Shown here piece by piece: positions 34,770 through 58,531 of a stretch of DNA of 64,000 nucleotides. Position 1 is the stretch's first letter; each line of letters opens with the position of its first letter. This DNA is from Bacteroidota bacterium (GTDB lineage: Bacteria; Bacteroidota; Bacteroidia; 2-12-FULL-35-15). A model generated the notes under the pieces. It made no database searches. It saw nothing but the letters and a program-made list of their open reading frames with translations, and was not told where the DNA came from. A program made the translations under genes and the position numbers. Location: positions 28,495-92,494 of the forward strand of contig CANJPX010000006.1 of assembly GCA_947476185.1 (NCBI GenBank), written 5' to 3'.

Positions 34770-36788
34770 ATGGCCTATAATTTTAAAGATAGAGAGATCA
34801 CAAAGATCTCTGTAATTGGTGCTGGACAGATTGGTCCAGACATTGCATTGCATTTTGCAAAATCACTTTCACCATTCGGTGTAGTTATAAATGTTATTGA
34901 TATTTCTCCTGAGGCATTGGAGAAAGCGAAAGCGAAAGCACATAAAAAAATTCAGAAAGGGTTAGAGTCGGGTGCGTTTAAGCCTGAACTGGCTGAAAAG
35001 ATAAAGAACGCCTTGGTATTTTCTGCTGATTACGAAAATGTACGCGGCTCACAAATTGTTGTGGAAGCAGCAACTGAAGATGAAAATATCAAAGACAAAA
35101 TTTTTAGACAGGTAGAATCACTTACTGATGATAAATGTATTTATCTTTCTAACTCTTCGCATATGCAGCCGGAAGTCATATTCCGGAATATTAAAAATAA
35201 ATCCCGCAGTTTAGTGGCACATTATTTTTTTCCTGCAGAAATAAATTTAGTTGTTGAATTGGTTCCCGGTAAAGAAACAGATGCTGATCTGGTAAATCTA
35301 TTACTTGGATTTTATGAGGCGATCGGAAAGGTTCCTATCAAAGTAAAAAGTTCTTACGGCTATGCCATAGATCCTGTTTTTGAAGGTATTTGTCAAACTG
35401 CCATCATGTGTTTGGAAAAGGGTTGGGGAACTGAAAAGGAAATTGATACTGCTGCAGTGAAATCTTTAGGCTTGGGCATTGGGCCTTTTACTGCCTTAAA
35501 TCTTACAGGAGGAAATCCTATTACTGCACATGGATTGGATGAATTGGGGAAATTAGTAATGCCTTGGTTCAAAACCCCGAATATTCTTCACGAAAAAAAT
35601 AAGAGTAAAGAACTTTGGAACACTGCTCAACGTGGTGAAAAAGTTGAACTGTCTCCTGAGAAAGAAGAAAAATTAGTAAAAGAATTTCAAGGTGCATTCT
35701 TTGCATTAACATCTTTTATTTTAGATCTGGATATCGTTGATATTAATGATTTTAATATGGCGTGTGAGATGTCACTTGTTATCCGGGCACCATTCTCATT
35801 TATGAATAAAGTGGGCATCGATAAGTCTTACGGATTGGTTAAAGATTTTTGTGCAACACATCCGACTTTTACATTCCCGAAAATCTTGGATAAAGCAAAA
35901 GCAGCTGGAGTTTGGAAATTACAGGACATTATTGCTACTAAACTCGATGGTGTTTGTGTGCTGACAATCCGCAGACCGAAAGTTTTAAATGCACTGAATC
36001 TCGAAGTGCTTGGTCAGATAAAAAATGAATTGGAGAATGTGAAGAATGATGATTCTGTTAAAGCTGTTGTTATTACCGGATTTGGAACTAAAGCATTTGT
36101 GTCCGGTGCCGATTTGAATATGCTTGCATCTTTAAAAACTCCCGAAGAAGGATATAATAATTCTCATACTTTTCAATCTGTGTTGAATTATGTTGAAAGC
36201 TTTGCTAAACCAGTAGTGTGTGCTATGAACGGTTTTGCATTTGGTGGTGGAAATGAATTAGCAATGTCTTGTACGGCACGTATTTGTAAGAAAGGCTTGC
36301 CTGTTTTGGTTTGTCAACCTGAAGTGAACTTAGGATTTATTCCGGGTGCAGGTGGAACCCAACGTCTACCGCGTATTGTAGGAGTTGAAAAAGCTGCTGA
36401 AATATTGCGTACGGCTAGAAATGTTTCGGCAAAAGAAGCAGCTGAGATTGGATTAGTATACAAAGAGGTGGAAGGGGATCTGGTTGATGAAGCAGTAAAA
36501 TTTGCAAAACAAATTGCATCCGGTGATGTTAAAGTGAAAACAATTCCGCAGGATGCTATCTCGACAAATGGAAACCCAATACAACTGGAGATAGGACATT
36601 TGAGCAAAAAAATTGATGAGATAATTGTAAAAGCGATCTATGAAGGTTCTCACTTGAGTTTGAAGGATGGTCTTGAATTAGAATCACGGATGTTCGGAGA
36701 ATGTCTTTTAACAGAGGATATGAAAATTGGTTTGGAAAATTTCAAATCGAACGGACCAAAAGCTAAAGCGAATTTTATTCATAAATAG
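34770..36788 (+). CDS. Bifunctional 3-hydroxyacyl-CoA dehydrogenase/enoyl-CoA hydratase (HCDH-ECH order)
   Basis: N-term '[16 protein letters not shown]', '[17 protein letters not shown]'; C-term ECH '[12 protein letters not shown]', '[19 protein letters not shown]'. Confidence 0.9.
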
Positions 36789-36789
36789 A

Positions 36790-38922
36790 ATGAAGTATAA
36801 TGTAGGTATTGATATTGGTGGAACCTTTACAGATCTTATCTGTGTTTCATCTGACGGTAGGACCATTGTTCATAAAACACTTTCTACTCCGCATGATTCT
36901 TCTGTTGGATTCATAAATGGTATCCGCGAAGTTGCAGAAATGACAGGAGAAACTTTTGAGAAATTTGTTTCTTCAATTGATACAATTGTTCATGGAACAA
37001 CGGTTGCAACAAATGCACTGTTGACCTTGAAAGGAGCAAAAACTGCACTTGTAACGACTAAAGGTTTTCGTGATGCATTGGAAATGAGAAGAGGTATCCG
37101 TGAGGAACAGTTTAATAATCATTATAAAAATGTTGTTCCCTTAGCGCCACGTTATTTGCGATTTACGGTAGACGAACGAATTGATTCTGAAGGAAAGATT
37201 TTGAAGAAATTTTCTGAGAAAGAACTTCTTCCGATCATTAAAAAGATCAAGGATGAAAAAGTAGAATCTGTTGCAGTTTGCTTCATGAATTCTTACAAGA
37301 ATTCATCACATGAAAAACAAGCATTAAAATTTCTTCGTAAAAATCTGAAAGGAATTTTTGTTACGGCTTCCTTTGAAGTACTTCCTTCAATTCGCTTTTA
37401 TGAAAGAATTAGTACAACAACCGTTAGTGCTTTTGTCGGACCTATTGTAGCGAAGTATTTGGATAATCTTACTCAGAAATTAGAAAGCATAAATTACAAA
37501 GGCACACTATTGATCATGCAATCAAATGGTGGTGTGGTTGTTCCTGATCAGGTAAAGAAAAATCCGGCTGTAACGGTTTTATCAGGGCCTGCTGCTGCTC
37601 CGACTGCTGGTGCATTTTATTCCAAATTACTTGGATTTAAAAATTGTATCACCGCTGATATGGGTGGAACAAGTTTTGATGCTGCCATCGTTATCGATAA
37701 TCAATGTGTAACCAGTACCGAAGGAAATATCAATCGTTATCGTATTGCTCTTCCTTCTCTTGATATTATTACAATTGGTGCAGGTGGCGGAAGTATCGGT
37801 TGGATAAATGAAGGAGGATTGTTGCAGATGGGTCCGCAAAGTGCCGGTGCAATGCCTGGTCCGGTATGTTACGAACGTGGTGGATCTGTTCCTACTTGTA
37901 CGGATGCCGATATTATTCTTGGTTATCTTAATCCTGATTTTTTTGCCGGAGGGAAATTAAAACTAAATAAAGCAAAAGCAGAGAAAGCAATAAAAACGGA
38001 TCTGGCCGCAAAACTTGGATTGTCTGTATTGGAAACTGCTGCCGGAATGTTTCGTATCATCAATAGCAATATGGCTCAAGGTGTTCGCGAAATTTCTGTT
38101 GAACGAGGTTATGATCCGAGAGAATTTTTATTTATTGTGGCAGGTGGTGCCGGCTCAATTCACTCTTCCGAAATATGCAAGGAATTGGAAATTCCGATGT
38201 TCCTTGTACCAAATGTCTCTTCTATTTTTTGTGCTGCAGGAATGTTATTGGGTGATCTGAAACATGACTATATCCGCTCTTATTTTACCTCATTTACGAA
38301 TCTTGATAGAAAAAAATTTATTTCTCTGTATAATGAAATGAAGGAGGATGGAATTCATGCATTGGTTGATGAAGAAGGAGTTTCACGTGAAAAGATTTCT
38401 TTTTCTCCGATTCTTGATATGCGTTATCTAGGTCAATACCACGAAGTGCAAATGGAAGCATCCTGGGATGATGTAATGAATTTTGATCTTAAAAAAATAT
38501 TTGAATTATTCCATAAAGAACACAATCGTCAGTTTGGATATTCCTTGAAAGAGGAAGGGACAGAAATGGAACTCATCAATGTTCGTTTGCGTGTTGTTGG
38601 AAAAACGGAGCGCCCAAGGTTTCTTTCAGAAAATAATAATTCTGTTACAGCTGAATCGGCTATTAAGGAGTATAGAGAAGTTTATATTCCTGAACTGAAT
38701 AAGATGAAAAAAGTTCCGATCTATGATGGCGACAAACCTATTTTCGGATCAAAGATAAATGGACCTTGTGTAATTGAAAAGATTACCACTTCTGTATTTA
38801 TCAGCGAAAACTACGACTGTGAGGTGGATAGTTTTGGTTCATTTATAGTATATGAAAAGAAAAAATTTCCAAACGGATTTCAATTGAAACAAAAACTTAC
38901 TGAAGTAAATGAAAGTAGATAA
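36790..38922 (+). CDS. hyuA: Hydantoinase/oxoprolinase family protein, subunit A (ATP-dependent)
   Basis: 'YNVGIDIGGTFTDLICVSSDGR', 'LMQSNGGVVVPDQ', 'ITADMGGTSFDAAIV', 'REISVERGYDPREFLFIVAGGAG'. ATG at 36790. Confidence 0.92.
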   Translation: MKYNVGIDIGGTFTDLICVSSDGRTIVHKTLSTPHDSSVGFINGIREVAEMTGETFEKFVSSIDTIVHGTTVATNALLTLKGAKTALVTTKGFRDALEMRRGIREEQFNNHYKNVVPLAPRYLRFTVDERIDSEGKILKKFSEKELLPIIKKIKDEKVESVAVCFMNSYKNSSHEKQALKFLRKNLKGIFVTASFEVLPSIRFYERISTTTVSAFVGPIVAKYLDNLTQKLESINYKGTLLIMQSNGGVVVPDQVKKNPAVTVLSGPAAAPTAGAFYSKLLGFKNCITADMGGTSFDAAIVIDNQCVTSTEGNINRYRIALPSLDIITIGAGGGSIGWINEGGLLQMGPQSAGAMPGPVCYERGGSVPTCTDADIILGYLNPDFFAGGKLKLNKAKAEKAIKTDLAAKLGLSVLETAAGMFRIINSNMAQGVREISVERGYDPREFLFIVAGGAGSIHSSEICKELEIPMFLVPNVSSIFCAAGMLLGDLKHDYIRSYFTSFTNLDRKKFISLYNEMKEDGIHALVDEEGVSREKISFSPILDMRYLGQYHEVQMEASWDDVMNFDLKKIFELFHKEHNRQFGYSLKEEGTEMELINVRLRVVGKTERPRFLSENNNSVTAESAIKEYREVYIPELNKMKKVPIYDGDKPIFGSKINGPCVIEKITTSVFISENYDCEVDSFGSFIVYEKKKFPNGFQLKQKLTEVNESR

Positions 38923-40582
38923 AATATTAGTTTCCATTTTTCAACGTGCCTTCAAATCCATCACGGATGAGATGAGCATCTCATTGACAAAAACTACACG
39001 CTCTCCGATCTTATGTGAAGCAAAAGATTTTGTGACAGGTCTTTACGATGCAAAAGGCCAAATGCTTGAGCAAACAGAGAACCTTCCTATTCTTTCTTTT
39101 TCTTTAGGACCTGTTTGTAAAGTGATATTGGAGCAATATGGAAAAGAGATCCACGAAGGCGATGTGATCATTCACAACGACGTTTTCACCATGGGAAATC
39201 AGAACAATGATGTGGCGATCTTTAAACCTATTTTTCACGAAAATGAATTAGTTGGATGGTCTGCTGCAAAAGGTCATCAAGCTGATATTGGCGGAGCCGT
39301 TCAAGGTGGATACAATCCGAATGCAACTGAAGTTTGGCAGGAAGCAATACGGATTCCTGCTGTGAAATTATATGAAAAAGGAAACTTTCGTAAAGATGTT
39401 TGGAATTTGATCTTTGCGAATATCCGTCTTCAAATGGTTCAGGAAGATATAAAAGCACAAATTGGTGCATGTACACTTGGTGAACGGAGATTACAGGCAT
39501 TTGTCGCAAAATATGGATTGGAAGTTTTTGAAGCGCACAAAATAGCATTGTTCGATTCTACAGAAAAAATGATGCGCGCGGAAATTAAAAATATTCCAAA
39601 CGGTGTATATAAAGGCGGTAGTACTGTGTATTATGATGGTAAACACAAAGGAAGTAAATTCCCTATTCGTACCGAGATCACTGTAAGGAATGAAGATATC
39701 ACTTTTGATTTTTCAAAATCATCGCCACAAACAAAAGGATTTGTTAACGGGATATATACTTCAACGTGCTCTGCAATCACCCTTACTTTCTTGCAGATGA
39801 TTAATCCGAATATTCCACACAATGAAGGAATGATAAAACCTTTAAAATATATCGTACCTGAAGGAACAATTCTGAATGCTTCTTATCCTGCAGCGACAAC
39901 ATTTGGAAATCATCTTTGTCCGCAAATAGCTGATGCTATTTTTAAGGCACTCGGTCCTGCAGTTCCTGAAAGGATTACAGCCGGTTGGAATCACTTATTG
40001 TGTTCCCTCTTCACGGGTAATCATCCGCGTACAGGTAAAAAATATGTGGACATCTGTTTCCTTGGATTAAAGGGTGGCAGTGGTGCAATGAAAAATGATG
40101 ATGGTTATGATCACATTGGAATGATTGATGCTTCCGGTGGTGTGCTGGATCAGGATTATGAAATGTATGAACAGCAAACGCCCCATTTAATTGTGCAACA
40201 CGAATATTTATGTGACTCCGGTGGAGCAGGTCAGTGGCGCGGTGGATTAGGTACCTCAACTCAAATCATGCTTCGTGGTGACGATACCACAATGGTTGTT
40301 TTTGGTGATGGAGATGTGGAAACCAATTATGGTTTATTTGGTGGTAAGGGCAGCGTCCTTAATAAGATCGAGTTAAAATATAAAAATGGAAAAAAAGTTA
40401 TTCCTATGAGTAAAGATATGATTCATGGAATTCCTAATAACACCTTGTACCATCAAATAGCCAGTGGTGGCGGCGGATATGGAAATCCGAAAAAGCGCGA
40501 TAGGGAAAAGTTGAAACAAGATGTGAAGAATGAAGTCGTTTCAAAAAAAGTTGCTGAAAAAATTTATGGTCTAAAAAAATAA
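38909..40582 (+). CDS. hyuB: Hydantoinase B/oxoprolinase family protein
   Basis: 'SISLTKTTRSPILCEAKDFVTGLYDAKGQMLEQTE', 'EGDVIIHNDVF', 'GGAGQWRGGLGTSTQIML'; overlaps hyuA by 14 bp. Confidence 0.92.
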   Translation: MKVDKILVSIFQRAFKSITDEMSISLTKTTRSPILCEAKDFVTGLYDAKGQMLEQTENLPILSFSLGPVCKVILEQYGKEIHEGDVIIHNDVFTMGNQNNDVAIFKPIFHENELVGWSAAKGHQADIGGAVQGGYNPNATEVWQEAIRIPAVKLYEKGNFRKDVWNLIFANIRLQMVQEDIKAQIGACTLGERRLQAFVAKYGLEVFEAHKIALFDSTEKMMRAEIKNIPNGVYKGGSTVYYDGKHKGSKFPIRTEITVRNEDITFDFSKSSPQTKGFVNGIYTSTCSAITLTFLQMINPNIPHNEGMIKPLKYIVPEGTILNASYPAATTFGNHLCPQIADAIFKALGPAVPERITAGWNHLLCSLFTGNHPRTGKKYVDICFLGLKGGSGAMKNDDGYDHIGMIDASGGVLDQDYEMYEQQTPHLIVQHEYLCDSGGAGQWRGGLGTSTQIMLRGDDTTMVVFGDGDVETNYGLFGGKGSVLNKIELKYKNGKKVIPMSKDMIHGIPNNTLYHQIASGGGGYGNPKKRDREKLKQDVKNEVVSKKVAEKIYGLKK

Positions 40583-40585
40583 ATT

Positions 40586-40987
40586 ATGAATCACGAAATA
40601 ATTTTGCCTGATGGCTGGCCGATTCCTAAAGGTTATTCAAATGGAATTCTTGCTGCAAAAGGAAGAACACTTTTTCTGGCAGGGCAAGTTGGTTGGACAC
40701 CTGAGGAAAAATTTGCGAGTGATAAATTGGTACCTCAGTTTGAGCAGGCACTGAAAAATATTGTTGCAATTGTAAGCAAAGCTGGTGGTAAACCTGAACA
40801 CATCTGCAAGATGACCTGTTTCTGCAAAGACCGAGAGCAATATTTAGCCAACAGAAGAGAGTTAGGAAAGATCTGGAAGGAAATAATTGGCAATCATTAT
40901 CCATGTATGAGTATGATCTTTATAGTTGATCTTTTAGATCATCCCGCAGTTATTGAAATTGAAGCCACAGCTGTTATACCTGAATAA
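40586..40987 (+). CDS. Rid (RidA/YjgF) family protein
   Basis: 'ILAAKGRTLFLAGQVGWTPEEKF', 'QALKNIVAIVSKAGGKPEHICKMTCFCKDREQY', 'PAVIEIEATAVIPE'. Confidence 0.88.
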   Translation: MNHEIILPDGWPIPKGYSNGILAAKGRTLFLAGQVGWTPEEKFASDKLVPQFEQALKNIVAIVSKAGGKPEHICKMTCFCKDREQYLANRRELGKIWKEIIGNHYPCMSMIFIVDLLDHPAVIEIEATAVIPE

Positions 40988-42117
40988 TGGATTTTGAACT
41001 AAGTGATATACAAAAACAAATACAACTGACTTTTCGCGATTTTGTGGATAGGCGCGTGAAGCCTGTTGCGGGCAAGTTAGATGAAGAGAAGAAATTCCCA
41101 ACAGAACTTTTTAAGGAAGTGGGTGATATGGGTTTTTTTGGAATGCGTTATCCCGAAAATGCTGGTGGTAGTGGATTAGATATTGTTTCATACTCCCTTG
41201 CTGTGATCGAAATGGCTCGAGGTTCTCTTTCTCTTGCAGCTGCTTGCACAATGCAATCGTTGATGGGAACTTATTTTTTATATCGTTTTGGCGATAAAGA
41301 AATTAAAGAGAATTATTTTGATGAAGCATTGAAAGGAAATAAGATCGGTGGAATATGCATGACGGAGCCCAATGCAGGAAGTGATCTGATGGCAATAAAA
41401 ACAATTGCGAAAGTTACTGAAGATGGTTTTATTTTAAACGGACAAAAGACCTGGGTTACATCAGCCCCCGTGGCTGACTTTTTTACTGTGCTTGCAAGAA
41501 CAGATAATCACGAACAACTTTCCATATTTTTTGTTCCTTCCAATTTAAAAGGAGTACTAATAGGAAAGAGTATTGAAAAGATGGGGGTTCGCGCCTCTGT
41601 TACCAGTGAAGTTTCTTTCAGTGATGTGAAGCTTCCAAAAAAATATTTACTTGGAGAAATTGGTGGCGGGACAAAATGTCTGAAAGAAATTCTTGCTGAA
41701 ATAAGAATTATGACTGCTGCTCTTGCAATAGGCGTTGCTACAGCGGCCTATGAAGATGCATTAAAATATGCCAATGAACGTTCTCAATTCGGAAAACCAA
41801 TCGGGAAATTCCAGGCGGTGCAAATGAAGTTTGCAGACATGGCTGTTCAGTTAGAAACAGCGAAACTTTATGTTTTTTTTGCTGCAACTTTAAGTGATCA
41901 GAATAAACCGCGACAAAAAGAAGCTATGATCGCAAAATTATATGCCTCTGAAATTGCAAATACTATTTGTGATGAAGCTTCCCGTGTGTTGGCATCATAC
42001 GGTTATGCAGTTGAATATAACATTGAGAGATATTTGCGTGATGCCCGATTTACACTTATTGGCGGTGGTACTTCAGAAATATTGAAAATAAATATTGCAA
42101 AAGAATTAGGATTATGA
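40987..42117 (+). CDS. Acyl-CoA dehydrogenase family protein
   Basis: 'GGICMTEPNAGSDLMAIKT', 'ERSQFGKPIGKFQAVQMKFADM', 'YNIERYLRDARFTLIGGGTSEILKINIAKEL'. Confidence 0.93.
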   Translation: MDFELSDIQKQIQLTFRDFVDRRVKPVAGKLDEEKKFPTELFKEVGDMGFFGMRYPENAGGSGLDIVSYSLAVIEMARGSLSLAAACTMQSLMGTYFLYRFGDKEIKENYFDEALKGNKIGGICMTEPNAGSDLMAIKTIAKVTEDGFILNGQKTWVTSAPVADFFTVLARTDNHEQLSIFFVPSNLKGVLIGKSIEKMGVRASVTSEVSFSDVKLPKKYLLGEIGGGTKCLKEILAEIRIMTAALAIGVATAAYEDALKYANERSQFGKPIGKFQAVQMKFADMAVQLETAKLYVFFAATLSDQNKPRQKEAMIAKLYASEIANTICDEASRVLASYGYAVEYNIERYLRDARFTLIGGGTSEILKINIAKELGL

Positions 42118-43238: not shown

Positions 43239-43253
43239 TTTTTTGCAAGAAAA

Positions 43254-44582
43254 ATGGAACTAGAAAAGAAAAAATTTTTAACGGATGCTGATCTGCCTTT
43301 CTGCAAAGGATGTGGACACAACCATATTGCCGCTAATACTGAGAAAGCGCTTCAACTTTTGGGATACGATCCAATGAATGTTGTTCTTGTAACAGATATT
43401 GGCTGTCACGGAATTATTGACAAATCATTTTTAACACATACTGTTCACGGACTTCATGGTCGATCTGTGGCATTGGCGACAGGCGTTTCTGCGGCTTTGA
43501 ATAATCCTGAAAAAAAGGTGATCGTTTTTATTGGTGATGGTGGAGCAACAATTGGAATGCAACATTTAATTGATGCAGCTCATAATGGATTTAATATGAC
43601 TGTGGTGATCCATAATAATATGCTTTATGGAATGACCGGCGGACAACCGAGTGAATTTACACCGGCAGGATTTAAAACACCGACATTACCTGATGGAGGA
43701 AAAAAGACCGGCTATGATATTTGCAAATTAATAGCTGCTGTTGAAGGGGCATCTTATGTTTGCCGTCTGGAAGGGATTTCTGATTTCTCGGAACAGTTGG
43801 CTGAAGCCTTTTCGAAAAAAGGTTTTTCATTGGTTGAAGTGATGGAAATTTGTCCGAGCTATGGAGTAAAATCCAATCCGGGAATGAAGCTTTCTAAAGT
43901 GATAGAAAACGCAGGACTTATCATAAATAAATTTGTAGATAGAGAAGTTGATAATTATAAAACAGAAGTTAAAACCGAGTTCAGATCACTTTTCAGCGAG
44001 AGCGATGCTATTCAAACAAAATTCCCTTCGAAGTTAGAAAAGCCTGTCCGGTTGATGCTTTGCGGTTCTGCCGGTGAAGGAGTTCAAGCTGCAGCTGAAT
44101 TTATTTTGAAGGCAGGAATAACCTCCGGTTTGAATGGAACAAAAAAAGGAAGTTATCCTGTTACAGTTGGTGTCGGATTTTCGGCAGCTGAAATTATTCT
44201 TTCTTCAGAAGAAATTCTATATACTGGATCACCCAATCCTGATGTGATCTGCGTTACTTCCTCAGATGGTTTGGAGTATGCACGAAAAACACTTGCAAAT
44301 ATGAAAGGAGGGAAATTGTTTATTGATAGTTCTCTCAAAGCTCCTGACACAAAAGCAGAAGTTATTTATTTTCCATTTCGTGAAAGAGGCGGTGCAAAAA
44401 ATTCATCGATATATAGCATCTTTTATTTTTTGACGAAAACTCAATTGTTTCCTATGGATTCACTGCTAAGTGTTTTTAATGAAAATAAAATTGCCAAAAA
44501 GTTTGATCAGGATAAAATGTTTCAGGCTTTAAATGAGCCTTTTGTTGATGGATTGACAGATAACAAAAAAGTAATTGTATAA
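43254..44582 (+). CDS. 2-oxoacid:acceptor oxidoreductase, fused beta-gamma subunit
   Basis: Beta 'LPFCKGCGHNHIAANTEKA', 'VFIGDGGATIGMQHLIDA', 'MLYGMTGGQPSEFTP'; gamma 'LMLCGSAGEGVQAAAEFILKAGITSG'. Confidence 0.88.
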   Translation: MELEKKKFLTDADLPFCKGCGHNHIAANTEKALQLLGYDPMNVVLVTDIGCHGIIDKSFLTHTVHGLHGRSVALATGVSAALNNPEKKVIVFIGDGGATIGMQHLIDAAHNGFNMTVVIHNNMLYGMTGGQPSEFTPAGFKTPTLPDGGKKTGYDICKLIAAVEGASYVCRLEGISDFSEQLAEAFSKKGFSLVEVMEICPSYGVKSNPGMKLSKVIENAGLIINKFVDREVDNYKTEVKTEFRSLFSESDAIQTKFPSKLEKPVRLMLCGSAGEGVQAAAEFILKAGITSGLNGTKKGSYPVTVGVGFSAAEIILSSEEILYTGSPNPDVICVTSSDGLEYARKTLANMKGGKLFIDSSLKAPDTKAEVIYFPFRERGGAKNSSIYSIFYFLTKTQLFPMDSLLSVFNENKIAKKFDQDKMFQALNEPFVDGLTDNKKVIV

Positions 44583-45950
44583 ATGAGTTATATTAAATCA
44601 TACGGAATTGCATTGCCTCATTTCAGAGTTGAGGACAGCACACTTCATCCTTCGGGTAAAAAGGGGGGTATGAAAGCTGTTTGTTTTGCCGATGAAGATA
44701 TCATTACATTGGCTTTTGAGGCATCATGTAATATAAATAAAGAAGGTGTCGATGGAATATTTTTTGCAACATCATCCTCTGTTTTTAATAATCGTTATCA
44801 CGCTTCTTTTCTTGCAGATCTGTTAAATCTTTCTCAAGGAATTTTAGCACTTGATTTTACGAACTCCGCCCGAAGCGGAACAGATGCTCTTCTTTTAGCA
44901 AATGATTTGATCGGTTCAGGTAAATACAAAAATATTTTAGTCGTGTCAGCAGATGTGAATTTTCCGAAAATAGGTAAAGAAAGATCAACACCTTTTGGTC
45001 ATGCAGCTTGCGCCATACTATTAAGTAAAGAAAAAGGAATTGCAGAGATCACAAGTTCCGGATCGTATAGTTCTTCTTTGGCAGAAGAATTCTCTTATAA
45101 ATCAAATACAATACAAAATGATCCACGGTACAGTCGTGATGCAGGATTCAAAAATAATATTACAACTACTATAAAGAGGATTGTTTCGAAGCCGGATTCT
45201 TTTGATGCTATTATTCTTAATTCACTTTATGCACGAATGGCAGGTGGGATTTTTGCAAAAGCAGGGTATACGGAAACCCAATTTGCAAAAGATTCTCTTA
45301 CTTCTAAAATTGGTAATACGGGTTCCACGCATGCACTTCTGCTGCTTATTAATGAATTAGAGAATGGAAAGAAAAGTATTTTACTGGCAGATTATACTAA
45401 CGGAACAAATTTGTTTGAAATAAAAACATTTACGTTTCCTGAAAATAAATGTTTACAAGAACAACTGAGTAAATATGATCTGATCAATTGTTATCAGGAT
45501 TATTTGCTTTTAAGAAAAGCAGGGAATTTTGGATCTTTCACATACACTACGAAAGAAATGTTTTCATCTGAAATGATGCATGAAAGAGAGAAAGATACAT
45601 TGCAATATTTAAAAGGATTGAAATGTGATATGTGTGGAACAATCTATTACCTGAAAGCTGCAAGATGTAAAAAATGCAAGTGTGAAACTTTTTCAACGGT
45701 CCAACTTTCAAAAACAGGTAACGTTTATGCCTTTACTTCTGAACATTATTTCCCTTCCTCTTTTCCTCCAATTACCTTGGTAATCGTTGATCTTGATGGA
45801 GGAGGAAGAATGACTGTTCAGCAAACTGATACGTTACTACCTGAAAAAAATAAAATGGAAATAGGTGTAAATGTGAAATTGGTTTTGAGGAAAATGATTG
45901 AAAATGATGCAAAACCAAATTATTTCTGGAAAGCAAAACAAAATGGGTAA
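44583..45950 (+). CDS. KAS III/HMG-CoA synthase-fold protein fused to C-terminal DUF35 Zn-ribbon/OB domain (predicted non-catalytic)
   Basis: 'LALDFTNSARSGTDALLLANDLI' (Ala where the nucleophile Cys is expected); C-terminal 'CDMCGTIYYLKAARCKKCKCETFSTVQLSKTGNVYAFT'. Confidence 0.8.
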   Translation: MSYIKSYGIALPHFRVEDSTLHPSGKKGGMKAVCFADEDIITLAFEASCNINKEGVDGIFFATSSSVFNNRYHASFLADLLNLSQGILALDFTNSARSGTDALLLANDLIGSGKYKNILVVSADVNFPKIGKERSTPFGHAACAILLSKEKGIAEITSSGSYSSSLAEEFSYKSNTIQNDPRYSRDAGFKNNITTTIKRIVSKPDSFDAIILNSLYARMAGGIFAKAGYTETQFAKDSLTSKIGNTGSTHALLLLINELENGKKSILLADYTNGTNLFEIKTFTFPENKCLQEQLSKYDLINCYQDYLLLRKAGNFGSFTYTTKEMFSSEMMHEREKDTLQYLKGLKCDMCGTIYYLKAARCKKCKCETFSTVQLSKTGNVYAFTSEHYFPSSFPPITLVIVDLDGGGRMTVQQTDTLLPEKNKMEIGVNVKLVLRKMIENDAKPNYFWKAKQNG

Positions 45951-47127
45951 GCAAACAGATATAGCAATCATAGGAATCGGTGTTACAAAATTCGGTGAAT
46001 TGTTTCATCAGAGTTATGATGACCTGGTTCGTGATGCAGCATTACAAGCTGTTGCTGATGCGAAAATTTCCTTGGATGATATTGGGGCGGCGTGGTTATC
46101 AACTGCTTTTCCGGAAATAGGAGTTTTCAAAGGAAGAAGCGGAATGGATCTTAGCGAGCCGCTTTCATTATATAATATACCTGTAACGCGGGTTTCAAAT
46201 TTTTGTGCTTCCGGTGCTGATGCTATTCGTAATGCCATTAATGCTTTACGTGCAGGAGAGTGTGATGTGGCAATGGCACTTGGTGTTGAAAAACTTCGTG
46301 ATCGTCAGCCTCAGGATAGCATTGTAAAAATGATGGTGGAATATGGTCACCCCTTTTTGCAAAAAGGATTTACTGCTGCAGGCACTTTTGCTGTTTATGC
46401 GAATAGGATGATGAAAGAATTTGGTCTGACTCGGGAAGATATTTCAAATGTTTCTGTGAAGAATCATTTTCACGGCTCCTTAAATGATAAAGCTTTTTAT
46501 CGTAAACCTTGTACTCTTGAAGAAGTGATGCGGTCTCAAATGGTTGCAGATCCTCTGACTGTTTTGGATAGCTGCCCGACAACGGATGGAGCTGCCTGTG
46601 TAATTATGGTTCGTGCTGAAGATGTTGATAAGAAAAAGCATAATCCTGTTTTTGTTAAAGGCCTTGGTTTGTCTGTTTCTACCGGATGGGATCTGCCTTT
46701 TTTCGATCCGAATCATGATTTCCTTTCTTTCGAAGCAACCCGTAATGCGGCAAAAATGGCTTACAAACAAGCTGGAATTACTGATCCGATCGAAGAACTT
46801 GATCTGGTTGAAGTGCATGATTGTTTTTCAATAGTGGAATTACTTACGTATGAAGATCTTGGTTTATGTAAACAAGGGGAGTCAAAAGATTTGATTCGCG
46901 GTAAGGAAACACAACTTGGTGGAAAAATTCCGGTAAATGTTAGTGGAGGACTTTTATCATGCGGTCATCCTGTTGGAGCAACAGGAATAAGAATGGTAGT
47001 TGAAGTTTCAAATCATTTGCGTGGTAATGCCGGTGAACGACAAGTTAAAAATGCAAAGAGAGGATTAACACATAACATTGGTGGTCCCGGTGCTATTGCA
47101 TCAGTTATAGTTTTAGAAAAATATTAA
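45943..47127 (+). CDS. Thiolase (SCP-x/acetyl-CoA acetyltransferase-like)
   Basis: 'VSNFCASGADAIRNAINALRAGECDVAMALGVEKL', 'VEVHDCFSIVELLTYEDLGL', 'VNVSGGLLSCGHPVGATGIR'. ATG at 45943 overlaps the upstream stop. Confidence 0.9.
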   Translation: MGKQTDIAIIGIGVTKFGELFHQSYDDLVRDAALQAVADAKISLDDIGAAWLSTAFPEIGVFKGRSGMDLSEPLSLYNIPVTRVSNFCASGADAIRNAINALRAGECDVAMALGVEKLRDRQPQDSIVKMMVEYGHPFLQKGFTAAGTFAVYANRMMKEFGLTREDISNVSVKNHFHGSLNDKAFYRKPCTLEEVMRSQMVADPLTVLDSCPTTDGAACVIMVRAEDVDKKKHNPVFVKGLGLSVSTGWDLPFFDPNHDFLSFEATRNAAKMAYKQAGITDPIEELDLVEVHDCFSIVELLTYEDLGLCKQGESKDLIRGKETQLGGKIPVNVSGGLLSCGHPVGATGIRMVVEVSNHLRGNAGERQVKNAKRGLTHNIGGPGAIASVIVLEKY

Positions 47128-50262: not shown

Positions 50263-50317
50263 TAAAAAATAATGTTGTGTACATTTTCAAATTGTTTAAT
50301 ATTCAAATTATAAAGAT

Positions 50318-50903: not shown

Positions 50904-51287
50904 ATGAAAGTTCTTTTAGCAAAGCCCGGTCTTGATGGCCACGATGTTGGAGTTAAAGTATTAGCTCATGGATTAATAGAAGCTGGATTTAAAGTAGTTT
51001 ATACCGGACTCAGAAAAACAATTGAAGAGATCGTAGATATGGCGACTGAAAATAAAGTTGATATTATCGGGATGTCAATTCTTTCAGGAACACATTTGGT
51101 TCTTGCAAAAAAAATGAAGGAAGTAATGGACGAAAGAAAATTAAATATTCCTTGGTTTGTTGGAGGAAATATTCCTGCAAAAGATATTGATGAGTTAAAA
51201 AAAATCGGGGCAGCACAAGCTTTTCCTACCGGAAGCAAAGTGATGGATGTGGTGGCCTATTTTAATGCAATAAAAATAACAGCATAA
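50904..51287 (+). CDS. B12-binding subunit of acyl-CoA mutase (methylmalonyl-CoA mutase C-terminal domain family)
   Basis: 'KVLLAKPGLDGHDVGVKVLAHGLIEAGFKVVYTGLRKTIEEIV' with the DxHxxG cobalamin motif; stand-alone. Confidence 0.94.
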   Translation: MKVLLAKPGLDGHDVGVKVLAHGLIEAGFKVVYTGLRKTIEEIVDMATENKVDIIGMSILSGTHLVLAKKMKEVMDERKLNIPWFVGGNIPAKDIDELKKIGAAQAFPTGSKVMDVVAYFNAIKITA

Positions 51288-51313
51288 TTAAATTATTAAA
51301 ATTTTCAACAATC

Positions 51314-52948
51314 ATGGCTGATGCAAAAATAAAATCTATGAAAGGTAAAACTGCGAAGGAGTTAAATGTAAAGCCGGTTTTTCTTGAATCCGGATTAGAA
51401 GTGAATCCTGTTTATACTGCAGAAGATTTGAATGCAACAAGTAGTACTCATGAGATGCCGGGCGAATATCCTTTCACCCGTGGTATTCATCCTACAATGT
51501 ATCGCAATAAACCATTTACTATTCGTCAATATGCCGGATTTGCATCTCCTGAAGAAACCAATGAACGATTTCAATTTTTAATAAAAAACGGACAATCAGG
51601 ATTAAATGTTGCTTTTGATCTTCCAACACAATGCGGACTCGATTCCGATGATCCACGGGCTTTTGGTGAAGTTGGAAGAGTTGGGATGTCGATTGACACA
51701 TTACATGATTTTGAAATTGCATTTAAAAATATTGACCTTGATAAGATAACAGTTTCAATGACAATTAATGGAACTGCAATTATTCTGATTGCCATGTATA
51801 TCGCTATGGCAGAAAAAGCAGGATATGATATTTCTACACTTCGAGGGACTGCTCAAAATGATATATTGAAAGAATTTATCGGTAGAGGAACCTGGATCTT
51901 TCCCGTTGATAAATCCGTTAAATTGGTGGTTGATACAATCGAATATTGCGCTAAGCATGTTCCTAAATATAGTCCTGTTAGTGTCTGCGGATATCATATC
52001 AGAGAAAGTGGAGCTAACCCGATCCAGGAAATGGCATATGCTTTCTGTATCGCAAAGGCTTATACTGATGGAGCATTGAGCAGAGGAATTACAATCGATG
52101 ATTTTGCATCACGACTGTCATTCAATTTTGATATTTATGGAAATCTTTTTGAACAGGTTGCAAAATTCCGTGGAGGAAGAAGATTGTGGGCGAAAATAAT
52201 CCGTGAAGAGTATGGTGCAAAAAAAGACAGTTCTTGTTGGTTGAGAATGATCGCTGGTGGAGGTGGAGGAGGATTAACAAAAGAACAACCTGAAAATAAT
52301 ATTGTACGAAGTGCCTACTATGCATTGATAAGTGCGCTTTCCGGGACGCAAACAATGGCTCTTTGTAGTTATGATGAAGCGTATACAATTCCTACAGAAC
52401 ATTCTGCCGAAATTTCTTTGCGTACCATGCAGATCATGATCCATGAAATGGGCATATGTGATACAGTTGATCCTTTAGGCGGTTCTTATTATGTAGAAGC
52501 ATTGACTGATAAATTTGAGGAAGAAATTAAAAAAGAAATGAAAACGGTTGAGAAGTGGGATGGAATAATTAATGCAGTTGCAACCGGAAAGATTCAGGAG
52601 TCTGTTTCTAAACAAGCATATGTGAGAGAAATGGGAATGCAGACCGGTAAAGTTCCTAAAGTAGGTGTAAATATTTATACCAGAGAAGAAGAAGCAAAAG
52701 ATGTTGAATTTCATCCCTACAATTTAAAAGCAGCAAATGCTCAAATAGGGGAATTGAAAACAACAAAAGCAGCAAGAGATTCTGAAAAGGTAAAAGCGTG
52801 TTTGGCATTGGTAAAACAAGATGCAATAGAGGATAAAAATTTAATGCCCTCGATAATTGCTGCAGTAAAAGAATATTGTACAGTGGGTGAAATTGTTTCT
52901 GCAATGAAAGAAGTGTATGGAGAATTTAAAGAACCAATATTTTTTTAA
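51314..52948 (+). CDS. Coenzyme B12-dependent acyl-CoA mutase large subunit (MCM family, noncanonical substrate loop)
   Basis: 'GEYPFTRGIHPTMYRNKPFTIRQYAGFASPEETNERF', 'LRGTAQNDILKEFIGRGTWIFP', 'VCGYHIRESGA', 'LRMIAGGGGGGLTKEQPENNIVR'. Confidence 0.92.
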   Translation: MADAKIKSMKGKTAKELNVKPVFLESGLEVNPVYTAEDLNATSSTHEMPGEYPFTRGIHPTMYRNKPFTIRQYAGFASPEETNERFQFLIKNGQSGLNVAFDLPTQCGLDSDDPRAFGEVGRVGMSIDTLHDFEIAFKNIDLDKITVSMTINGTAIILIAMYIAMAEKAGYDISTLRGTAQNDILKEFIGRGTWIFPVDKSVKLVVDTIEYCAKHVPKYSPVSVCGYHIRESGANPIQEMAYAFCIAKAYTDGALSRGITIDDFASRLSFNFDIYGNLFEQVAKFRGGRRLWAKIIREEYGAKKDSSCWLRMIAGGGGGGLTKEQPENNIVRSAYYALISALSGTQTMALCSYDEAYTIPTEHSAEISLRTMQIMIHEMGICDTVDPLGGSYYVEALTDKFEEEIKKEMKTVEKWDGIINAVATGKIQESVSKQAYVREMGMQTGKVPKVGVNIYTREEEAKDVEFHPYNLKAANAQIGELKTTKAARDSEKVKACLALVKQDAIEDKNLMPSIIAAVKEYCTVGEIVSAMKEVYGEFKEPIFF

Positions 52949-52954
52949 ATAGCA

Positions 52955-54160
52955 ATGCGAACAAAAAAAGATATTATTGTATTATCACTTGAGCAAGCTC
53001 TGGCACTGCCATTTGCAACACAACGAATGGTGCATCAGGGGTGGCGTGTGATCCGGCTTGAGACTCCTGCAGAAGACGGTGGAGGAAATCCCGGTGATCC
53101 GAATAGATACATTGGTGCTGATCTTGGTTATCATGATCTGCATTCCTATTACATCGCTCCTAATATCGGAAAGGAAGCGATCACCATTAATTTAAAAAAG
53201 AAAGAAGGTCAGGAGCTTCTCTTGAAACTAATAAAAGAATTAGAAGTTGATGTATTCATGTGCAATACTTTGCCAAAACGTTACAAACAACTTGGAATTG
53301 ATTTTGAAACATTAAAACAAGCTAATCCAAATATCATTTGGTGCGGTATTTCTGCCATGGGGCCTGATTATCCGGATCGTGCAGGTTATGACCCGGCATT
53401 GCAAGCATTGATGGGTTATACTTATTTAACCGGAGAGTCGGATGGAAAACCTGTTCCCTCTGGAATTCCGATAATTGACTTGAAGGCTGGCGATGAAGCA
53501 TTTACGCAGGTTATTCTTGCGATGTTAGATCAGAAAGCGGGTGGAAAAGAAATACATATTTCTATGGCACAATGTGCTGCCAGTTGGTTAATAACAGCAT
53601 TGCCTCAATTGGAATTTGTGAAAAATGAAAATGAACTTTTCACAAGAAGTGGAAATGAGCATCGCAGTTTTATTCCATGTAACGTTTATCCAACAAAAGA
53701 TGGAATGGTATATCTTGCAATTGGAAATGATTCTCAATGGGCAAAATTTTCTTCACATGTCGGATTCGAAAAATTAGCATGTGAGAGCAGAAGAACAAAT
53801 GCGGGAAGGATGATTGAAAAAGAGAATATCTATAAAGAGATCGGTGAATGCACAAAAGAATATTCTACGAAGGAATTTGTGGACCTGTGTTTAAAAATAA
53901 ATCTCGCTGTTTCTCCTGTAAATACTACCAAAGACGTTGCTTCACTTGATTTTGTATCTAAGGAATTAATTAAAACAGTTTTGCCAAGCGGTAAAACTGT
54001 TGCACTTTTTCCGTCCTCAGTTGAAACGGATTTTTTGAAAGAAAACAATAATGTGCTTTCATTTGCTCCTCGTTTAGGGGAACAAAATAAGATAGTTTTT
54101 TCTGAGGCAGGTTTTTCTGAGACAGACATTAATGAGATGGCAAAAAATAATGTGATATAA
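52955..54160 (+). CDS. CaiB/BaiF (type III) CoA-transferase
   Basis: 'ALALPFATQRMVHQGWRVIRLETPAEDGGGNPGD', 'NLKKKEGQELLLKLIKELEVDVFMCNTLPKRYKQLGIDFETLKQANPNIIWCGISAMGP'. Confidence 0.92.
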   Translation: MRTKKDIIVLSLEQALALPFATQRMVHQGWRVIRLETPAEDGGGNPGDPNRYIGADLGYHDLHSYYIAPNIGKEAITINLKKKEGQELLLKLIKELEVDVFMCNTLPKRYKQLGIDFETLKQANPNIIWCGISAMGPDYPDRAGYDPALQALMGYTYLTGESDGKPVPSGIPIIDLKAGDEAFTQVILAMLDQKAGGKEIHISMAQCAASWLITALPQLEFVKNENELFTRSGNEHRSFIPCNVYPTKDGMVYLAIGNDSQWAKFSSHVGFEKLACESRRTNAGRMIEKENIYKEIGECTKEYSTKEFVDLCLKINLAVSPVNTTKDVASLDFVSKELIKTVLPSGKTVALFPSSVETDFLKENNNVLSFAPRLGEQNKIVFSEAGFSETDINEMAKNNVI

Positions 54161-54161
54161 T

Positions 54162-57100
54162 ATGATAGAGCGCACGATAAATATTTTAACAGCTCATTCT
54201 TCAGAACACAAGACTTGTGTAATGGGGAATGAAGGAATAGCTCGTGCCGCAATTGAAGCAGGTGTTGATGGCGTTTTTTCTTATCCCGGTACTCCTTCAA
54301 CAGAGATCTCTGAAATTTTTAATCACGTAAATAATTTTCAAAGCGAAACTTCTAACAAAGAGAAATATCCTGAACAAACATACCATCCAATTTATTTTGA
54401 ATACAGTATAAATGAAAAAATTGCTTTAGAAAAGGCCATTGCTTTTTCTATAGGAAACAAAAGTGCTTTGTGTGTGATGAAGAATGTTGGAATGAATGTA
54501 GCCAGCGATCCTTTGATGTCGGTTACGTATCAAACCATCGTTGCTCCTTTGGTTATTGTTGTTTGCGATGACCCGGGTTGTCATTCAAGTTCAAATGAAC
54601 AGGATTCCAGATATTGGGGGCCAATGGCATCTGTTCCGATTTTTAATCCCGCAACTCCTGATGATGCATTTAAAATGATCAAGCAGGCTTTTGAACTTTC
54701 AGATAAAATAAAATTACCTGTTATTGTTCGCACTACTACTCGCGTTTCACATACACGTGGGATCGTAACTTATGGAAATGTGTTTTATAGATCACGCGAT
54801 GCTCACTTTGACCGGTTACCGGAACATATTAATATTCCGGCAAGAACAGCAACTGCACATACACGATTGCTGGATAAATTAAGATCAGAAAATGTTCTTG
54901 CATTATTGAAACATAATAGCAAAACAATTCTTGATGGTGAAGGTGCTAAGTTGGGAATAATAAGTAGTGGTGTTGCAACATCCTATGTAACAGAAATTCT
55001 TTTTCAGAATGATCTTTCACATAAAGTAAATCTTCTTGATTTAGGTTTAATACATCCATTTCCTGAAAAGGAGGTTGTGGATTTTCTGAAAAAAGGTTTT
55101 GAGAAAATTCTGATTCTGGAAGAATTAGATGCTTTTGTTGAATCGGCAGTTCGCAATGTAGCGCAGCGGAATGGACTCAATGTATCTATTTTAGGAAAGG
55201 GTTTTTCAGAAATTGCTTTGACAGGTGAATTTTCTATTGATATTATCACAAAAGTGCTAGAAGATTTTTCGGGCAGTTCTTTTGAAAAGAATAAAAATGA
55301 GCCTTTGCAAAATGCCGATAAATTTCTGGATAAACTACCTCCTCGTCCTCCAACTCTTTGTGCCGGTTGTCCGCATCGTGCTACTTTTTATCTTTTGAAA
55401 CTTGCTATTCCTCGTGAACAAAGTGAATTGATCATGTGTGGAGATATCGGTTGTTTTGGGTTGGGTGCACTTCCTCCTTTGAAAATGATTGATACGATCA
55501 ATCATATGGGTATGAGTATTTCGATGGCTCAGGGATTATATGAATCATTTCATTCATCTGAAAAAAGTAAAAAGGTTGTTGCTCTTTTGGGAGACGGAAC
55601 TTTCTTTCATAGTGGCTTGGCCTCTCTTGTGAATGCAGTTTATACACGTGCAAATATTTTGGTTATCATATTTGATAACAGAACTACCGGAATGACCGGT
55701 CATCAGCCACACCCTGGAGCTTCTCGCACATCAAAATATCATGAAATTGACCTTCCTCCATTGCTTAAAGGTTTAGGAATAGAAGTTGTTGAAACGATCA
55801 ACCCTTTTAATGTAAACGAAAGTTTTGAAAAGGTCAATAAAGCGATGGAACATGAAGGTGTGTCAGTTCTCGTTTCGAGAGCCCCTTGTATTTTTCTTCC
55901 GGATTTCAAAGATAAGATCGATAAGAGAATGAAAATTGTCGTGGATCCGAATCGTTGTAATACTTGCGAAAATCACGAAGATATTTCTCTTTCTTGCTCA
56001 CGGTGTTATGCTCCAAAAAGTAATTTATCCAGAGCTAAGGCAAAATTGGTTGCTGAATTTTCTATTGCCGGTTCGGAACAACTTTGTCCTGCAAATATTT
56101 GTAACCATGGCTTTTTTAATTCCGTGCTTGAAAGTGAATTTAAATCAGCAATAGAAATTGTTCGTGATAAAATATTGTTTGCCCGTACCTGTGGCGATAT
56201 TTGTCACCGACCATGCGAATTTTTCTCTAAAGAGGAAAATGTTATTCCGATAAAACTGATCAAAAAAACTGTATCCTCTTTTGATGAATTGTTTCTCGAT
56301 TTTTCTGCTCCTATAAAAAGAGCGAAAGAGGCTCCGAAAAAAAATAAAACGGTCGCTATTATTGGTGCTGGTCCGGCAGGTCTAAGTGCTGCTTATGATC
56401 TGATTCAAGCCGGATATAATGTTAGTATTTTTGAAAAAGAAAGTAAGGCCGGAGGGATGGTCACTTTTGCAATTCCGTATTTCAGAATGGATAAATCGGG
56501 TTTTGATACCGAAGCAATGCAGTTGGAAAAGATGGGTGTTAAATTTCATTTCAACAGATCTCTAGGAAAAGATTTCACCTTAGAAAAATTGGAGAAAGAA
56601 TTTGACTCCGTTATTCTTGCAATTGGAATGAATAGTTCCAAAACACTCGACATCATTGAAAAAAGTATTCCTTCATCAAAAAAGAGTGACGCATTGTCTT
56701 TTCTAAAAATGTTCAATCATCAGGAAAATAATATTAAAGAAAATTCAACAATTTTAATTATCGGTGGTGGAAATAGTGCTATTGATGCGGCTAGATCTGC
56801 GAAAAAAATGCATCCTGAGAATAGGGTCATTGTGTCTTGCATTGAAACGGAAAGTACAATGCCTGCTTTTGTTGAGGAAGTTAAACACGCTGCTGATGAA
56901 GGTGTGAAATTTATTTTTGATAGTTATGTGGAGAAGGTTTCGGTTGGAAAGAATGAACAAATAAATATTGTTCTGAATTCCTTCAGCGATAAAAAAGAAT
57001 TGTCTAATTTCCATTGTGATCATGTGATTACGGCCATCGGACAAACTGCTGAAGAAGCTGTTATCGGAGCACTTCAAAAGGATGAAAGTACAAGAGTGAA

Positions 57101-57524
57101 AAGTGAAAATAGTTATACAGGCTACGGAAATGTTTTTGCTGCCGGTGATATCAGCTCCGGAAATAACATTAGTGTGATCGGAGCAATCGCCTCCGGGAAA
57201 AAGGCTGCAATAGGGGTCCGTAAACTTTTGGAGAATTATAAATTTGAGTATGAAGGCGAAGAAGCATTGGAGCGTTTAAATACTCAAACACTTCCAACTA
57301 GAAATTCTCTTGCTCAAAATACGGATGTTGAAATTGAGAAGTTTGACCTGTATCAATCCTGCAAAAAATGTAATCATTGTATCGATAATTTTGGTTGTCC
57401 TGCAATGGTAAAAGTAAATGGGAAAGTCCAAATAGATATGAGTCGTTGTAACTTATGCGGTTTGTGTATTGATGTTTGTCCGAACAATGCGATCAGTTGG
57501 GAAGCAGAAACCGTGATAAATTAG
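54162..57524 (+). CDS. iorA: Indolepyruvate:ferredoxin oxidoreductase alpha-like subunit fused to GltD-like FAD/NAD(P) module and 4Fe-4S domain
   Basis: IorA-like 'MGNEGIARAAIEAGVDGVFSYPGTPSTEISEIF', 'RPPTLCAGCPHRATFYLLK', 'LGDGTFFHSGLASLVNAVY'; GltD-like 'VAIIGAGPAGLSAAYDLIQAGYNVSIFEKESKAGGM', 'IIGGGNSAIDAARSAKKM'; C-term 'CNLCGLCIDVCPNNAI'. Confidence 0.88.
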   Translation: MIERTINILTAHSSEHKTCVMGNEGIARAAIEAGVDGVFSYPGTPSTEISEIFNHVNNFQSETSNKEKYPEQTYHPIYFEYSINEKIALEKAIAFSIGNKSALCVMKNVGMNVASDPLMSVTYQTIVAPLVIVVCDDPGCHSSSNEQDSRYWGPMASVPIFNPATPDDAFKMIKQAFELSDKIKLPVIVRTTTRVSHTRGIVTYGNVFYRSRDAHFDRLPEHINIPARTATAHTRLLDKLRSENVLALLKHNSKTILDGEGAKLGIISSGVATSYVTEILFQNDLSHKVNLLDLGLIHPFPEKEVVDFLKKGFEKILILEELDAFVESAVRNVAQRNGLNVSILGKGFSEIALTGEFSIDIITKVLEDFSGSSFEKNKNEPLQNADKFLDKLPPRPPTLCAGCPHRATFYLLKLAIPREQSELIMCGDIGCFGLGALPPLKMIDTINHMGMSISMAQGLYESFHSSEKSKKVVALLGDGTFFHSGLASLVNAVYTRANILVIIFDNRTTGMTGHQPHPGASRTSKYHEIDLPPLLKGLGIEVVETINPFNVNESFEKVNKAMEHEGVSVLVSRAPCIFLPDFKDKIDKRMKIVVDPNRCNTCENHEDISLSCSRCYAPKSNLSRAKAKLVAEFSIAGSEQLCPANICNHGFFNSVLESEFKSAIEIVRDKILFARTCGDICHRPCEFFSKEENVIPIKLIKKTVSSFDELFLDFSAPIKRAKEAPKKNKTVAIIGAGPAGLSAAYDLIQAGYNVSIFEKESKAGGMVTFAIPYFRMDKSGFDTEAMQLEKMGVKFHFNRSLGKDFTLEKLEKEFDSVILAIGMNSSKTLDIIEKSIPSSKKSDALSFLKMFNHQENNIKENSTILIIGGGNSAIDAARSAKKMHPENRVIVSCIETESTMPAFVEEVKHAADEGVKFIFDSYVEKVSVGKNEQINIVLNSFSDKKELSNFHCDHVITAIGQTAEEAVIGALQKDESTRVKSENSYTGYGNVFAAGDISSGNNISVIGAIASGKKAAIGVRKLLENYKFEYEGEEALERLNTQTLPTRNSLAQNTDVEIEKFDLYQSCKKCNHCIDNFGCPAMVKVNGKVQIDMSRCNLCGLCIDVCPNNAISWEAETVIN

Positions 57525-57525
57525 A

Positions 57526-57942
57526 ATGTTGAAAAGTTGGCCCTATAATATTACCCCTAACAAAGTAATTTCTACCGAAATTGGTGATATATTTATCGAT
57601 GAAAATGGTGTCTTGGTCATGCGGTATACAAGCGATCTTGATTTTGGGCTGGAAATGGCTAAGTCTGCTATCAAAATCTGTGAGGATATAGTTGGTGATC
57701 ATAAGGTTCCGGTTATGGTAATTACCGGAGAATTTGGTAGTATGTCGACCGAGACTCGTGAATATCTTTCAGGTAAAGAAGTTGCAAAACACAGAAAGGC
57801 TGTTGCTCTGGTTGTCAATAATTTATCTCATAGATTAATAGCACAGTTTATCATTAAAATGAGGAATAAATATTATCCAACACAAGTTTTCAAAAATGAA
57901 GAAGAAGCCTTAATTTGGCTAAATAAAATAAATGAATCATAA
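57526..57942 (+). CDS. Small STAS/SpoIIAA-like protein between iorA and iorB
   Basis: 138 aa, 'VPVMVITGEFGSMSTETREYLSGKEVAKHRKAVALVVNNLSHRLIAQFIIKM' alpha/beta pattern; 2 bp after iorA and overlapping iorB. Confidence 0.5.
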   Translation: MLKSWPYNITPNKVISTEIGDIFIDENGVLVMRYTSDLDFGLEMAKSAIKICEDIVGDHKVPVMVITGEFGSMSTETREYLSGKEVAKHRKAVALVVNNLSHRLIAQFIIKMRNKYYPTQVFKNEEEALIWLNKINES

Positions 57943-58531
57943 GTGTAAAAAAATACTGATTGCAGGTGTTGGCGGACAAGGAATTGTCTATCTCAGCAAT
58001 ATCATTGTGGAGGCTGCAATGCTATCCGGTATTCCTGTCAGTGTTAGTGAAATTCATGGACTTTCGCAACGTGGGGGAGTTGTTACTTCCGGAATTGGAT
58101 TAGGGGAAAATTGCTCCGGATTTTATGGAAAAGCAGGGATTGATATTCTTATTGGTCTCGAGCCTTTAGAAACACAAAGATGTTTAAGCTATCTGCATAA
58201 GAATAGTAGTGTGATTTTCGGAAATTACCGAGTTCAACCTTATGCAGTTAATGCTCAGATGGCAGAGTATCCAGAGGTTAATGATTTTGTAGCTTATATA
58301 AGTGAGCAATGCAAGGAAGTTGTCTATATAGAGAAGTTTCCCGAAAATATTGATTCTGTTCTGTATAATGTTTTTCTTCTTGGAAGAGCCACCAGGATGC
58401 AGGATTTTCCGCTTTCTGCAAATAAAATTGAAGAAGCTATAAATGCCACTGTTTTGGGATATTTTAAAGAGAAAACATTAAAAGCGTTTACCTTGGGATT
58501 GGAATTTGAATTGAACAAATTATCTGTATAA
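57932..58531 (+). CDS. iorB: Indolepyruvate oxidoreductase beta subunit (2-oxoacid:acceptor oxidoreductase gamma family)
   Basis: '[52 protein letters not shown]'. Confidence 0.9.

Follow-up and report, generated by a model that had tools for sequence, protein, structure and literature searches.

A fused, catalytically dead HMG-CoA-synthase-like/DUF35 protein encoded beside an intact thiolase in an iaa-type gene cluster of a Bacteroidota genome

The fused gene and its neighbors

The window, by which we mean the whole stretch of 64,000 nucleotides that was analyzed, carries at positions 44583-45950 an ORF of 455 residues that joins in one chain a fold of the HMG-CoA-synthase (HMGCS)/KAS III type and a DUF35 domain. 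The next gene, which encodes a thiolase, shares its first 8 bp with the end of the fused ORF, and the two genes stand among others that resemble the iaa genes of indoleacetate degradation (Table 1). Two separate 2-oxoacid:ferredoxin oxidoreductase sets (42114-44582 and 48399-50872) flank the pair, each of them found in only some orthologous loci. A gene for a probable outer-membrane or secreted protein (47141-48100) directly follows the thiolase and recurs in several orthologous clusters (L048, L049, L051, L052, and L063).

Table 1. Features of the fused gene, the adjacent thiolase and the surrounding cluster (window coordinates).
Feature	Coordinates	Strand	Basis
Fused 3-hydroxyacyl-CoA dehydrogenase/enoyl-CoA hydratase	34770..36788	+	Reading of translated ORF; syntenic in orthologous loci
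Hydantoinase A/B pair, IaaC/IaaE-like	36796..40582	+	Domain matches, synteny, iaa operon comparison
RidA-like protein	40586..40987	+	Domain match, synteny
IaaF-like benzylmalonyl-CoA dehydrogenase, GGG motif (LIGGGTSEI)	40987..42117	+	Motif; 54-57% to betaproteobacterial IaaF
HMG-CoA-synthase/KAS III-like domain, residues 1-310, catalytic residues gone	44583..45512	+	Profile and fold matches
Ser64, facing HMGCS catalytic Glu	44772..44774	+	Alignment
Ala96 (codon GCC), nucleophile position	44868..44870	+	Alignment
Asn213, facing HMGCS catalytic His; invariant in orthologues	45219..45221	+	Alignment
DUF35 domain (zinc ribbon and OB fold), residues 325-455, C-terminal	45555..45947	+	Pfam PF01796, PDB profile matches, AF2 fold
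Zinc-ribbon Cys4: C348, C351, C362, C365	45624..45677	+	Invariant in 29/29 orthologues
Partner thiolase, SCP2/archaeal acetoacetyl-CoA thiolase type, intact Cys88, His292, Cys294, His342	45943..47127	+	
B12 mutase, small and large subunits, IaaGH-like	50904..52948	+	Domain matches, synteny, iaa operon comparison
Family III CoA transferase, IaaL-like	52955..54160	+	ORF reading; iaa operon orthologue at 44-48%
Indolepyruvate:ferredoxin oxidoreductase genes	54162..58531	+	ORF reading; kept in orthologous clusters

An earlier note, made from the sequence alone, had read the ORF as a fusion of a catalytically dead KAS/HMGCS fold to DUF35, and the profile, Pfam and fold matches agree with this. The C-terminal part matched Pfam PF01796 with 33.5 bits (cut-off 27.1), and its PDB profile matches were the DUF35 parts of 6esq, PhlB, BbsA and ChsH2. 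The AF2 models, all of monomers, reached moderate confidence, with a mean pLDDT of 73 for the full chain and 69 for the C-terminal part; the separate model of the C-terminal part gave Z scores of 9.6-10.2 to the same four proteins, and fold matches to PhlA, archaeal HMGCS 6esq and MucA/MucABC were tied at Z about 30-31. The N-terminal domain reached 91.6 bits with ncbifam PRK04262, under the cut-off of 244, and the fused ORF scored 50 against a cut-off of 353 with the HMG-CoA synthase model TIGR00748.

Alignment to the archaeal HMGCS of 6esq indicated what has been lost. Residue 96, within LDFTNSARSGTDAL, is Ala and faces the Cys of 6esq ('EFACKAG'), and Asn213, within 'ILNSLYARM', lies opposite the catalytic His. 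The earlier note had placed Ala at the nucleophile position and had seen no His-Pro-type motif at 'ILNSLYARM'; its coordinates, reading frame and motifs were right. The replacement of Cys, Glu and His by Ala96, Ser64 and Asn213, together with the below-cut-off scores to curated models, excluded an active HMGCS or KAS III as the identity of this protein. BbsA was also rejected, as the DUF35 part is fused to an HMGCS-like domain and does not stand alone, and as the score with the curated BbsA model NF053627 was 39.1 against 250 bits.

Conservation of the fused protein and its thiolase

Orthologues were collected from related genomes (8) and from a scan of GTDB species genomes (31), two overlapping sets from which 32 sequences, mostly from metagenome assemblies, were analyzed. 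They are 49-98% identical and belong to Bacteroidota wherever the record names a group. Position 96 was occupied by A, S, T, N, P, H, Y, V or R and by Cys in none of the 32, so that the loss read from a single sequence is fixed among the homologues. In the orthologue alignment this position is among the most variable sites (rank 266 of 280), whereas D91, R97, G99 and D101 around it are invariant, as are N213 and H250. The HMGCS Glu, Cys and His were all absent in the 29/29 orthologues included in the tree. Five stand-alone HMGCS of archaeal type from other genomes of the phylum served as a positive control and retained Glu, Cys, His and Asn. These stand-alone proteins with full catalytic residues are encoded in G116, G148, G160, G172 and G255 (L005, L006, L015, L010 and L008, respectively), and a separate DUF35 gene lies nearby in G116, G148, G172 and G255.

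We considered whether the fused protein could still catalyze condensation with a different nucleophile, such as a Ser or Thr at position 96 or a displaced Cys. Ser or Thr does occupy this position in 14/32 orthologues; however, the others have Ala, Asn, Pro, His, Tyr, Val or Arg, the catalytic Glu and His are gone too, and the alignment held no conserved Cys within the HMGCS-like part (residues 1-300), where the earlier note had allowed that one might be found. We regard this explanation as highly improbable.

The motifs of the partner thiolase that the earlier note had called intact (NFCASG, EVHDCF and SCGHPVG) were all found, and Cys88, His292, Cys294 and His342 were invariant in the 27/27 partner thiolases aligned. 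Of 59 related genomes, the same 9 carried both the fused gene and the thiolase, and the other 50 carried neither (Fisher p = 8e-11, a value that overstates independence because the genomes are related). Wherever an orthologous locus was of sufficient length, the thiolase was the next recognized gene. A further thiolase residue, Cys340 (codon 46960-46962), which precedes the His of the GHP motif by two positions, was invariant in the 27 orthologous thiolases; the position holds Phe or Lys in 11 distant partners and Ala in 6esq.

The absence of all catalytic residues, and a rate of change faster than that of the core-cluster neighbors, could be taken to mean that the fused protein is a functionless, decaying remnant of an HMG-CoA synthase. 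The conservation data contradict this. The HMGCS-DUF35 fusion was present in all complete orthologues, full-length and across several Bacteroidota groups; the zinc-ribbon Cys residues are invariant; and co-occurrence with the thiolase is perfect. The fused gene is under purifying selection, with dN of about 0.12-0.15 against dS >1 and dN/dS of about 0.1-0.2, the dS values being near saturation for most pairs. Its dN is approximately three times that of the thiolase (0.04-0.05 at similar dS). Together, the 32 orthologues, the purifying selection and the lack of Cys at position 96 in any of them indicate neither chance nor decay, and we give the remnant explanation almost no credence.

Distant fusions and phylogeny

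By profile, the closest solved structures were PhlA (3.5e-21 and 9.8e-19) and MucA (7e-15), followed by archaeal HMGCS 6esq (4e-12). More distant fusions, at approximately 21-25% identity, were found on plasmid records of Sphingomonas, Novosphingobium, Variovorax, Rhodococcus, Mycobacterium, Streptomyces, Sphingopyxis, Sphingobium, Azoarcus and Haladaptatus. These distant plasmid homologues adjoined a thiolase gene in 12/12 cases and none had Cys at the nucleophile position, so that the dead fusion beside thiolases reaches Pseudomonadota, Actinomycetota and haloarchaea. Some proteobacterial fusions (L096 and L101) have lost zinc-ribbon Cys residues that the orthologues of the window protein keep invariant. 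In haloarchaeal loci (L102 and L117) the order is reversed, with the thiolase upstream of the fused gene and UbiD-type decarboxylases adjoining.

A maximum-likelihood tree built from the HMGCS-like part placed the fusions in one group (97/88), sister to PhlA and MucA (98/93), with the intact HMGCS separate from both (100/99). This topology fits a single loss of catalysis followed by a single fusion; that order of events is tentative, owing to small sampling, some long branches and partial PhlA/MucA rows. The earlier note had likened the pairing to archaeal thiolase/HMGCS/DUF35 complexes and to BbsAB; the nearest kin by profile and tree are instead PhlA and MucA. As these are dead subunits of known multicomponent acyltransferases, the arrangement is neither unprecedented nor limited to this genome. 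Two points had thus been missed: dead HMGCS subunits in thiolase/DUF35 complexes are already known (PhlA of PhlABC), and the dead fusion is distributed more widely than Bacteroidota.

The pattern of conservation raises another explanation, namely that the HMGCS-like domain has acquired a new chemistry or ligand role, with Asp91, Arg97, Asp101, Asn213 and His250 binding or transforming a CoA ester in what would be a two-site enzyme. These five residues are invariant while the Cys position drifts, and a GxxGAAH-like motif occurs in most of the distant fusions. However, the invariance may reflect a structural role of these residues, the HMGCS-like domain changes more quickly than the thiolase does, and PhlA, the nearest relative of the domain, is non-catalytic: it has neither the catalytic Cys (Gly115 in its place) nor the Glu, and PhlC alone is catalytic (PMC6392133). 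We therefore regard a new chemistry in this domain as unlikely.

The iaa-type cluster and a proposed role for the pair

Indoleacetate is a plant hormone and a product of tryptophan. The orthologous loci share a conserved gene order, which runs 3-hydroxyacyl-CoA dehydrogenase/enoyl-CoA hydratase, hydantoinase A, hydantoinase B, RidA, acyl-CoA dehydrogenase, in some a 2-oxoacid oxidoreductase, fused gene and thiolase, and continues with B12 mutase, CoA transferase, indolepyruvate oxidoreductase and a xanthine-dehydrogenase-type hydroxylase. In indoleacetate degradation, the benzylmalonyl-CoA dehydrogenase IaaF is distinguished by a GGG motif in place of YEG (PMC8360864). The window has an IaaF with GGG, and the hydantoinase pair, mutase and CoA transferase are in one cluster with it. 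Neither a classical thiolase nor a CoA ligase was seen among the window ORFs; the window instead carries the SCP2-type thiolase with its fused partner, and indolepyruvate oxidoreductase genes, which are the likely source of indoleacetyl-CoA. One of the latter (54162-57524; 1120 residues) reads as an indolepyruvate oxidoreductase alpha fused to a GltD-like FAD/NAD(P) domain and to ferredoxin-like Cys motifs, and may supply indoleacetyl-CoA directly, replacing the CoA ligase.

The same assembly encodes subunits of a benzoyl-CoA reductase and downstream enzymes, which fits an anaerobic fate of the aromatic product. On the contig stretch concerned (G000:C39:1-20000, L130), which is possibly a contaminating contig, bcrC and bcrB were above the NCBIfam cut-offs and A and D below; 6-hydroxycyclohex-1-ene-1-carbonyl-CoA dehydrogenase was above its cut-off, cyclohexadienecarbonyl-CoA hydratase was below, and a classical thiolase was also present.

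An IaaF search identified five Burkholderiales genomes with a canonical iaa operon. In 5/5 of these operons the mutase genes come immediately after IaaF, and neither a fused gene nor a DUF35-type thiolase intervenes. One operon examined in detail (L109) has a classical thiolase (TIGR01930-type) and a CoA ligase upstream, presumably iaaA and iaaB from the gene order. The adjacency of IaaF and mutase and the classical thiolase in L109 suggest that in Bacteroidota the thiolase step has apparently been taken over by the fused protein and its thiolase. A search of 250 Burkholderiales genomes for fused homologues (E 1e-40) returned only one (L118), which adjoins a thiolase and has Gln at the Cys position. 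The partner thiolase had no match in 399 Burkholderiales genomes at E 1e-90, a result that carries no weight alone, and the plasmid search with IaaF found generic acyl-CoA dehydrogenases only. The open-access literature searched gave no description of this fused protein in iaa clusters.

Based on these observations, we consider it likely that the fused protein is non-catalytic and serves the adjacent thiolase as an obligate partner in the cleavage of 2-aminobenzoylacetyl-CoA, as a single-chain counterpart of PhlA plus PhlB. In the anaerobic degradation of indoleacetate/tryptophan, the pair would carry out the terminal thiolysis (2-aminobenzoylacetyl-CoA to 2-aminobenzoyl-CoA and acetyl-CoA) and would stand in for the classical thiolase found in the betaproteobacterial operons. 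This substrate, predicted from the iaa-type cluster, is in keeping with the aromatic 3-oxoacyl-CoA context that the earlier note had suggested. Adjacency and homology point to a physical complex of the two proteins, in which the chemistry would be performed by thiolase residues only, DUF35 would attach the fused protein to the thiolase dimer, and the HMGCS-like part, itself empty, may close a shared substrate/CoA cavity and stabilize the assembly. The substrate channelling or CoA binding that the earlier note had proposed is a putative function of the fused protein. Classical thiolases are also encoded elsewhere in the genome, one of them beside the bcr genes, and could do the thiolysis, which makes the substrate assignment of the pair uncertain.

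A further explanation is that the pair is a C-acyltransferase of the PhlABC type, acting on an aromatic acceptor rather than in the iaa pathway. The closest dead subunits are indeed those of PhlABC and MucABC. The thiolase, however, matches PhlC (1e-26) less closely than it does archaeal acetoacetyl-CoA thiolase (5e-59) or BbsB (1e-52), with a score to the curated BbsB model far below its cut-off (199 against 750), and it belongs to a catabolic cluster in which the thiolase step would otherwise be missing. An acyltransferase is consequently quite improbable, in our estimate.

If the thiolysis proposal is correct, the dead PhlA subunit would be no isolated curiosity, being one case of a general pattern in which a synthase without chemistry is kept as partner of a degradative thiolase, now as one protein. 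The proposal makes testable why DUF35 thiolases need partners, and it offers a two-gene unit that should be simple to reconstitute. It also predicts that Bacteroidota break down indoleacetate/tryptophan anaerobically by a version of the pathway with the thiolase step replaced. A wider speculation, possible but doubtful, is that single chains of dead HMGCS plus DUF35 form an apparently unnamed class of pseudoenzymes, obligate partners of a CoA-thiolase branch in Bacteroidota, Pseudomonadota, Actinomycetota and haloarchaea, that in the iaa pathway of Bacteroidota the classical thiolase gave way to this two-gene unit, and that Arg97, Asp101, Asn213 and His250 were re-used for acyl-CoA binding.

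Among known systems, the classical thiolase of the betaproteobacterial iaa operons likely acts at the same pathway step, with no fused partner at the equivalent place. PhlABC (PpATase 5m3k/5mg5 and CsATase 9skh) is the nearest in the profile search and in the tree and one of the best fold matches, and likewise combines a dead HMGCS-like subunit, a DUF35 protein and a catalytic thiolase-fold subunit. In homologues, DUF35 binds to dimers of the thiolase fold, and the three parts of PhlABC together line one continuous cavity (PMC6392133; PMC12329534); functional PhlABC was obtained only when the whole operon phlABC was expressed (PMC6392133). In PhlABC, however, the HMGCS-like and DUF35 parts are separate chains, whereas the window protein is one chain, and the window thiolase is nearer to acetoacetyl-CoA/BbsB-type thiolases than to PhlC. 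PhlABC also serves antibiotic synthesis through CoA-independent C-acyl transfer to a phenol, unlike thiolysis, for which the catabolic iaa context of the window pair argues. MucABC of Streptococcus macacae (9vbo/9vbt), which adds an acetyl group in natural-product synthesis (PMC10161427), has the same three-part composition, with Glu aligned at the Cys position of MucA, and again consists of separate chains, unlike the fusion. The archaeal thiolase/HMGCS/DUF35 complex (6esq) is alike in folds and gene set, but its HMGCS is catalytic, with Cys, Glu and His, all of which the window protein has lost while becoming fused to DUF35. Finally, the benzoylsuccinyl-CoA thiolase BbsAB (7pxp and 7pyt) similarly consists of a thiolase and a DUF35 protein and acts in the anaerobic degradation of aromatic compounds, although BbsA is without the HMGCS-like domain that the window protein has.
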